Below, piece after piece: positions 17,847 to 19,529 of a stretch of DNA of 48,424 nt. The translations under genes and the position numbers were made by a program. Position 1 is the first letter of the stretch; each line of letters starts with the position of its first letter. The notes under the pieces were generated by a model. It worked only from the letters and a program-made list of their open reading frames with translations, ran no database searches and had not been told where the DNA came from. This stretch comes from Paenibacillaceae bacterium ZCTH02-B3 (GTDB lineage: Bacteria > Bacillota > Bacilli > Paenibacillales > Paenibacillaceae). The DNA lies in NCBI GenBank assembly GCA_002159065.1, contig LZRV01000140.1:1-48424 (forward strand), written 5' to 3'.

Positions 17847-18035
17847 CGTTCCTCCTTTCGGAAATGGGCGAGCCGGATTCGGGGCGCCGCCTGTCCGTTT
17901 CGCCACATCCATTATATCCGCTTGCCCGGTATCAGAAAATATTAATATTTTTCAATTCCTTTTCTTTTTTAGGGGTCCTGTTTCCAGCAATATAACATGA
18001 TTTTAACATATTCCAGCAAAGTACTTCTATTTACA

Positions 18036-18046
18036 TTTTTCGACAA
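18036..18046 (-). promoter_or_regulatory. Spo0A box (0A box) upstream of the agr cassette
   Basis: TTTTTCGACAA is the exact reverse complement of TTGTCGAAAAA and contains the 7-bp 0A core TGTCGAA. It lies 86 bp before the first agr-cassette gene in an AT-rich region that also holds TAATAATAT (18076-18084), a possible -10. Spo0A control is inferred. Confidence 0.5.
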
Positions 18047-18131
18047 TTTCTTCGATGGAATAAGACAGAAAAATGTAATAATATTACCATACACGGCATG
18101 ATAGATAGAATCCGGTCGGGAGAGAGACCGC

Positions 18132-18773
18132 ATGAACGTGGACGTACCGGGATATATCGTTTTCGGGGCCATCGAGGCGGCGGGAATCTTCGCGATCATG
18201 TTTTATGTGTTTCGATTCGACGCAAAGCTTTATTACAAGGAAATTGCCGTCGCAAGCATCCTGTTTCCCTTTCTGACCTACATGATTCGGGTCGAGATGG
18301 AGCTTCATCCCATCGTATATCCGTTTGTGTCGGTCCTTTATTTCACCTTTTTCACCTACTCCATCCTGAGGGCTCCCGCTGTGTGGTCGCTGATCATCTC
18401 CAGCCTGGCCAATATCGTTCTTGTCGTTGCCCAATCGATACTCCTCGTCATATTGACAGCCGCTGATGTCATTTCATTCGAAAGGGTTACCAGCTACCAA
18501 AGAGACGCGTTTGCCTTGCAGCTGATCACCGCCGTCATTTTGACATTGATCGGACACCGAATTTATACAAGGGGATACGGCTTTTCTTTTCCCTTTCATG
18601 TCTTTCGCTGGAAAGGCGAAAACCGTTGGATGATGGCCATCATTTTGGTCTGGTTTGCCGTGATGGCGATTCTGTTTGTGAGTCAGAATGTGGCTTACGG
18701 CCTGGTCATTGCGATTGTCATTTTGTTCCTTCTCTTGTACTTTGCCGTTCGCAAGGAGAGGTCGGAAATATGA
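18132..18773 (+). CDS. Multi-pass membrane protein resembling an AgrC sensor domain without kinase
   Basis: This 213-residue protein is almost entirely hydrophobic, with about seven membrane segments (near residues 8-29, 36-54, 59-78, 81-108, 125-145, 166-185 and 187-206), and ends with a short basic-acidic tail AVRKERSEI. Size and topology match the N-terminal peptide-sensing domain of AgrC-type histidine kinases, but no dimerisation His or ATP-binding domain follows. Its stop overlaps the agrB start as ATGA. GGGAGAGAG precedes the ATG. It could be a kinase-less receptor, an immunity or export partner of the peptide, or an unrelated membrane protein; only topology and linkage support the first. 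Confidence 0.6.
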   Translation: MNVDVPGYIVFGAIEAAGIFAIMFYVFRFDAKLYYKEIAVASILFPFLTYMIRVEMELHPIVYPFVSVLYFTFFTYSILRAPAVWSLIISSLANIVLVVAQSILLVILTAADVISFERVTSYQRDAFALQLITAVILTLIGHRIYTRGYGFSFPFHVFRWKGENRWMMAIILVWFAVMAILFVSQNVAYGLVIAIVILFLLLYFAVRKERSEI

Positions 18774-19306
18774 TTGAAACCCTTTCCAGACGCATGGCGG
18801 TCCGCATGAAGGAAATCCATCCGGGTCATCCGATCAGCACTGAAGTGCTTGCCTTTGCCCTGGGTTCCATCATCAACATTTTTGGAACCATCGTCCTTTC
18901 GCTCGCATTGGCCGCCGTTTTGGGCCAAATGAAAGAAACGGCTCTGGCCATGCTGGCGTTTGCCGCGCTGCGGGCCATATCCGGCGGGCGGCATCTGAAA
19001 ACGAGCGTTTCCTGCATGCTGGTGACATCCGCAGGCGCCAATCTGATTCCGTTGGCCGCAACCTGCATCCCGTTTACGAAATATTCGATCATTTTGATGA
19101 CCGCAACCAGCATGGCGCTGGCGGCCGTGTTCGCCACCCGGAAGATTGAACGTCAAACGAGGATACCGAAAAAATATTTTCCGCACCTGCGCGTTCTGTC
19201 GGTATTGCTCATTGCGACAAATTTCATTTTTCTCAACCCGATCATCGCCATATCCCATTTCATTCAATCCGTATTGTTGATTCGATGGGGAGGTGAATCG
19301 CGATGA
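18770..19306 (+). CDS. agrB: AgrB-type peptide-processing endopeptidase
   Basis: This 178-residue integral membrane cysteine protease of the AgrB family trims the C-terminus of AgrD and forms the thiolactone. The catalytic dyad is in the conserved block RAISGGRHLKTSVSC, His75 and Cys82, seven residues apart as in the Staphylococcus enzyme (His77/Cys84), with Arg68 and the Gly-Gly before the His also kept. About five to six hydrophobic segments are present. AAGGAGAGG precedes the ATG. It is coupled by ATGA overlaps to the genes on both sides. Confidence 0.92.
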   Translation: MIETLSRRMAVRMKEIHPGHPISTEVLAFALGSIINIFGTIVLSLALAAVLGQMKETALAMLAFAALRAISGGRHLKTSVSCMLVTSAGANLIPLAATCIPFTKYSIILMTATSMALAAVFATRKIERQTRIPKKYFPHLRVLSVLLIATNFIFLNPIIAISHFIQSVLLIRWGGESR

Positions 19307-19437
19307 AGAAGCGGACGGTACACCTGATCTGTTCGCTTGCGGCCGGGTTGGCCTCCATGTTTGTCTTGACGGCTTGCTATTTCTGGGCGTACCAACCCGA
19401 AGTGCCCGAGGAACTGCTCAACAAAGAAGCGGCGTGA
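19303..19437 (+). CDS. agrD: AgrD-type cyclic lactone autoinducer peptide precursor
   Basis: This 44-residue precursor has a basic start MKKRTVHL, an amphipathic or hydrophobic leader to residue 22, the core TACYFWAYQP and the recognition tail EVPEELLNKEAA. The distance from core Cys25 to EVPEEL equals that from the core Cys to EVPKEL in Staphylococcus AgrD-I. By analogy the macrocycle would be Cys25-Tyr-Phe-Trp-Ala29, closed as a thiolactone, with cleavage before Tyr30. The start overlaps the agrB stop (ATGA), with GGGGAGGTG upstream. The mature peptide's N-terminal length cannot be predicted. Confidence 0.9.
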   Translation: MKKRTVHLICSLAAGLASMFVLTACYFWAYQPEVPEELLNKEAA

Positions 19438-19451
19438 TGGCTTGGGACGGG

Positions 19452-19486
19452 CTCCCTGGATCGTTTCCGGAAAACGATCCAGGGAG
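19452..19486. other. Perfect 15-bp hairpin between agrD and GH8 genes
   Basis: CTCCCTGGATCGTTT (19452-19466) and its exact complement (19472-19486) enclose a 5-nt loop CCGGA. Neither strand has a T run after the stem, so it is not a standard intrinsic terminator. It sits 14 nt after the agrD stop and 43 nt past the convergent GH8 gene, and may act as a bidirectional terminator or 3'-stabilising element. Confidence 0.7.
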
Positions 19487-19529
19487 TCGAATGGCCGCCT
19501 GAGGCAGGGCGATGTTGAAGCGGGCGTGG

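Follow-up and report, generated by a model that had tools for sequence, protein, structure and literature searches.

The window analyzed here, the whole stretch of DNA, is one complete contig (C140) of 48,424 bases from a genome assembly of 3.12 Mb in 187 contigs (completeness, 97.7%; contamination, 3.5%). A preliminary description of this DNA had placed three ATGA-overlapping genes, among them agrB and agrD, at 18132-19437, and this arrangement was confirmed by the open reading frame coordinates (Table 1) and by profile matches. The membrane protein gene and agrB overlap at 18770-18773, and agrB and agrD at 19303-19306. AgrB matched Pfam PF04647 (E 8.8e-17), and its residues H75 and C82 are spaced like the catalytic pair of S. 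aureus AgrB, of which we take them to be the counterpart. AgrD scored 41.2 bits with NCBIfam TIGR04223, for which the cut-off is 19. Both matches lie above curated thresholds. The product of the first gene had no Pfam or NCBIfam match in profile searches, but was related to the phage family phrog_15604, annotated as "membrane protein" (E 4e-12). Because this gene recurs next to agrB across a large family, its open reading frame is not a chance occurrence.

Table 1. Features of the agr-type cassette in the window
Feature	Coordinates	Strand	Description
Seven-helix membrane protein, 213 aa	18132..18773	+	Predicted AIP receptor without a kinase domain; relative of PHROG phrog_15604
agrB, 178 aa	18770..19306	+	PF04647; H75 and C82 spaced as the AgrB catalytic pair
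agrD, 44 aa	19303..19437	+	Predicted five-residue ring C-Y-F-W-A, then tail YQPEVPEELL
17-pair hairpin	19450..19488	+	Directly 3' of agrD

The hairpin is followed by a convergent gene, and the transcription unit therefore probably ends at the hairpin without reaching a LytTR gene. Upstream of the cassette, one sigma-70-like site was detected (18084-18111), which is not above chance expectation. The G+C content was 51% in the cassette and 34% in the intergenic region upstream of it (17913-19437 together), compared with 61% in the whole window. As both values lie below that of the window, the cassette may have been acquired.

The AlphaFold2 model of the 213-aa protein (pLDDT 90; pTM 0.85) consists of seven long helices that end at residue 212, in agreement with the seven spans and the stop after the last span that had been read from the translation. 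Lysine and arginine residues cluster mostly in the tail and in the loops that follow helices 1, 3 and 5, a distribution of charge that predicts an external N terminus and a short internal tail. The near-invariant residues of the family lie in the outer half (E15, Q48, R53, Q101 and Q130) and on the inner face (R28, P82, G150-F151, E163, K208 and E209). We infer that the former line a ligand pocket and that the latter form an output surface. No known fold was recovered by Foldseek at E <= 0.001 in PDB or BFVD, and the protein had no sequence match to solved structures. A likeness to bestrophin was rejected, as the best VIA-align Z score of 5.7 is not meaningful for a helical bundle. A search of viral contigs for an AgrC suitable for structural comparison found none.

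Profile searches of all 48,424 bases detected no HATPase_c, HATPase_c_5 or LytTR match, as expected from the earlier statement that the window holds neither a kinase nor a LytTR gene. Loss of a kinase gene through an assembly error is very unlikely, since the flanking genes are complete, the contig runs on for 18 kb on the upstream side of the cassette and for 29 kb on its downstream side, and the same order of genes is seen again on single-contig genomes. The source genome contains 34 HATPase_c matches; no AgrC kinase was found in it with an AgrC profile that detected AgrC in four control genomes. Only two LytTR genes are present, on contigs C63 and C115 (their assignment to this genome assumes correct binning), and both encode bare LytTR proteins. 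Contig C63 carries a complete paralogous four-gene module of membrane protein, AgrB, AgrD and LytTR, with the AgrD ring C-W-A-F-G. The C115 gene (L059 9804-10181, G000:C115) follows the serine kinase gene prkA and has no accompanying sensor or AgrB. A stand-alone LytTR gene just 3' of prkA was observed in several genomes (also L172-L175 and L179); relatives have kept this orphan or, for G236, have a complete sensor-AgrB-AgrD-LytTR cassette two kilobases further on. It is unlikely that the C115 LytTR is a displaced partner of the window sensor, as the LytTR proteins closest to it come from a different clade of cassettes.

Of 247 genomes sampled from the same taxonomic family, 156 contained a match to a sensor profile built from 31 homologues of the membrane protein, and 161 contained AgrB. 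Among the 100 best sensor hits, 83 were followed on the same strand by a stand-alone LytTR gene, and closer reading added two. The median distance from sensor to LytTR was 678 bases, which is space for agrB and agrD. LytTR also followed in 24/26 named loci (Paenibacillus and one Cohnella) and in 12/12 viral contigs from IMG/VR, and is thus the usual fourth gene. All 28 LytTR proteins in alignment A2 matched Pfam LytTR and were only about 125 aa long, leaving no room for a receiver. One plasmid record is annotated in this very order, as hypothetical protein, AgrB, cyclic lactone autoinducer and LytTR. A five-residue C/S ring recurs among the AgrD homologues.

Departures from the four-gene order were also found. 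Membrane protein, AgrB and AgrD without LytTR, the form seen in the window, occur in several lineages. The membrane protein is accompanied by AgrD and LytTR without AgrB in two loci, by LytTR alone in four, and by no cassette partner in two. The occurrence of the membrane protein with LytTR in loci that lack agrB indicates that it is tied to LytTR and not only to peptide making. A 426-aa open frame in one genome (G015) that suggested a kinase fusion is most likely an artefact, a long frame that covers an ordinary sensor gene; AgrB and LytTR lie close by. Large hybrid 7TMR-DISM kinases adjoin some cassettes (L045, L052, L068-L070 and L077), and the source genome encodes a similar hybrid kinase away from its cassette (L002, G000:C52). 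Canonical agrB-agrC-agrA loci are found in the same taxonomic family as well; their kinases, of 427-447 aa, are related to S. aureus AgrC, and the AgrA of the one locus scanned is a receiver-LytTR protein. Given this coexistence, the kinase-less loci represent a system of their own and not the local version of agr.

The AgrC sensor likeness ascribed to the membrane protein found support only by an indirect route. Direct profile comparison (hhalign) of the sensor family with canonical AgrC sensor domains was negative, at 12.5%. The sensor profile matched the N termini of proteins of 411-450 aa encoded beside AgrB in another Bacilli family, and these bridge proteins compared well both with the sensor family (98%, E 2e-13) and with canonical AgrC (82%, E 1e-5, over 239 columns that include the helix before the kinase). 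No kinase domain match was found in the bridge proteins and, in an alignment read by eye, one of the four has H at the expected phospho-histidine position, where the other three carry Q or R. Their loci have the order of the Paenibacillus module, sensor, AgrB and AgrD, and three of the four continue with a gene for a 240-aa LytTR protein whose N terminus is receiver-like. The bridge proteins thus look like decayed kinases that link the sensor to AgrC. Collectively, their matches, the variation at the phospho-histidine position and the gene order suggest a stepwise loss, of the kinase first and then of the receiver. One relative has a receiver-LytTR gene (L157 5743-6504, G459:C14) downstream of the genes for a kinase-less sensor, AgrB and AgrD; this locus is possibly an evolutionary intermediate, or else a case of a borrowed kinase.

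Several cassettes lie inside prophages, adjoining lysis and repressor/integrase genes (IMG/VR contigs L108, L110, L113-L115 and L118; Brevibacillus phages Emery and Davies, L120 and L121). This placement, in some prophages between the two sets of genes, suggests a possible role in the choice between lysis and lysogeny. A search of a phage collection with the window protein (P0001) and one relative returned nothing, and the Brevibacillus phages were found with a prophage relative as query. In Emery and Davies, two sensor genes are accompanied by an annotated agrB, a putative agrD and a gene for a LytTR-like protein. The sensor profile matched gp53/gp54 and gp44/gp45 of these phages with E values from 1e-19 to 1e-26, and the LytTR profile matched gp57 and gp48 with E values of 4e-10 and 1e-8.

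There is a strong case for identifying the window's three genes as a kinase-less cassette for agr-type signalling. The gene identities, the gene order, the recurrent receiver-less LytTR partner and the missing AgrC kinase are computed results; together, the recurrence of LytTR, the loci with membrane protein and LytTR only, and the lack of AgrC make direct control of LytTR the best reading. We consider it probable, on this sequence-based evidence, that the system performs agr-type peptide quorum sensing in which the AIP receptor controls a stand-alone LytTR protein directly, without phosphate. In the proposed mechanism, AgrB would cut and cyclise AgrD into a five-residue thiolactone, predicted to be Cys-Tyr-Phe-Trp-Ala, which would then be secreted. 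The seven-helix protein would bind this peptide through the conserved polar residues of its outer half, and its conserved inner face would directly hold or release the LytTR protein, with no phosphate passed. The peptide structure, the binding of the ligand, and the receptor-LytTR contact and its sign are predicted elements of this model. Several results count against it: the window lacks a linked LytTR although its closest sensor relatives have one, LRS-type repeats are not enriched upstream of the cassettes, the direct comparison with AgrC is negative, and one relative combines a kinase-less sensor with a receiver-LytTR protein. The earlier proposal that the receptor passes its signal to another protein is well supported, its partner in relatives being the stand-alone LytTR.

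The state of the window's own copy is a separate matter. In a tree of 100 sensors, on which LytTR switches between present and absent at least 12 times, the window sensor groups with those of G231, G074 and G100 (support, 98/97). As these clade mates all have a linked LytTR gene, the window cassette most likely lost its own. In the nearest relative, G231 (L034 6761-7636, G231:C1), two tandem LytTR genes follow AgrB. The term "minimal cassette" used previously is therefore true of the window, but its three genes are a derived, incomplete copy of the four-gene module. This copy may use the C63 or C115 LytTR in trans, or it may be decaying. That it is already a non-functional remnant in a reduced genome seems unlikely. 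The missing linked LytTR would fit, as would a genome (3.1 Mb) below most relatives in size and the orphan C115 LytTR at the prkA locus, near which one relative has a full cassette. However, all three open reading frames are intact, the AgrB residues and the AgrD core and tail are conserved, and the identical three-gene form occurs in several lineages.

Alternatively, the membrane protein could sense the peptide and recruit an unrelated histidine kinase from another locus, in which case phosphate would still carry the signal. Candidates exist among the 34 HATPase_c matches of the genome and the 7TMR-DISM hybrid kinases beside some cassettes, and the relative with a receiver-LytTR as its last gene hints at a foreign kinase in some loci. 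We regard this explanation as improbable, because the LytTR protein that normally accompanies the sensor lacks a receiver that could accept phosphate, no kinase adjoins the cassettes consistently, and the genome has no AgrC-type kinase. Still less probable is a helper role in peptide export or maturation, or in immunity to an AgrD product that acts like a bacteriocin. The tight overlap, with its likely translational coupling to agrB, and the absence of a recognised domain would suit such a role, but four loci pair the membrane protein with LytTR and lack both agrB and agrD, two have it on its own, the commonest fourth gene encodes a transcription factor, and the precursor is of AgrD type with a conserved tail. 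The immunity, export and decoy functions raised in the preliminary description thus fit poorly with a membrane protein that also occurs with LytTR alone.

We see about an even chance that loci of this type constitute a phosphate-free class of peptide quorum sensing in Paenibacillaceae, their relatives and their prophages, in which the AgrC kinase and the AgrA receiver have both been lost and a seven-helix AIP receptor gates a bare LytTR protein by contact. If so, this would be a peptide receptor without a phosphorelay, and would offer a route by which a two-component system can shed both of its phospho-domains. A literature search that left most subscription journals and all bioRxiv preprints outside its scope found no published description of the LytTR partner or of the combined module. 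HATPase-less membrane proteins beside AgrB and AgrD are already known from three phages, having been reported in 2014.

As in staphylococcal agr (AgrBDCA), the module has an AgrB peptidase (in the window, PF04647 with H75/C82 spacing), an AgrD precursor (TIGR04223) whose ring has five residues and whose tail reads P-x-x-P-x-x-L, a polytopic receptor and, in relatives, an output of the LytTR family. Unlike in staphylococcal agr, the receptor, of 213 aa in the window, has no histidine kinase domain, and no AgrC kinase is found elsewhere in the genome; in place of an AgrA with receiver and LytTR domains, both LytTR genes of the genome encode bare LytTR proteins. The gene order also differs, being receptor-AgrB-AgrD-LytTR. 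The agr3 locus of phage phiCDHM1, as described in the 2014 paper (PMC3901668), likewise has agrB, agrD and a receptor gene but lacks a response regulator; it differs in that its AgrC is full-length (453 aa) and includes a HATPase domain. The passages of that paper on Brevibacillus phages Davies, Emery and Abouo report AgrB, AgrD and HATPase-less membrane proteins, as here, and contain no mention of the LytTR gene of the Emery and Davies cassettes. In Emery and Davies, the membrane proteins are homologous to the window sensor family and a LytTR-like gene follows; these cassettes differ in being phage-borne, with two tandem membrane proteins and a divergent AgrD.

The LytTR Regulatory Systems (LRS) HdrRM and BrsRM (PMC6193735) resemble the module in pairing a receiver-less LytTR protein with a kinase-less membrane protein. 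The window sensor is such a membrane protein; a receiver-less LytTR in the same operon is absent from the window and present in most relatives and in the C63 paralogue. The module differs from these systems in encoding the membrane protein first and not second. In an LRS, the membrane protein inhibits its LytTR regulator; in the module, it may hold or release it. The direct repeats of LRS (9-bp repeats, 12 bp apart, upstream of the promoter) were not detected: neither a simple ACnnnTT pattern nor 8/9 repeats were enriched upstream of 56 cassettes, although LRS repeats vary and weak sites may escape such searches. A further difference is that the module has its own peptide signal genes, whereas the signals of HdrRM and BrsRM are stated to be unknown (PMC6193735). 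In most relatives, LytTR, kinase-less membrane protein and candidate peptide are encoded in one operon, which makes the signal directly testable. If the proposed class is real, it would also represent an LRS for which a natural signal is predicted.
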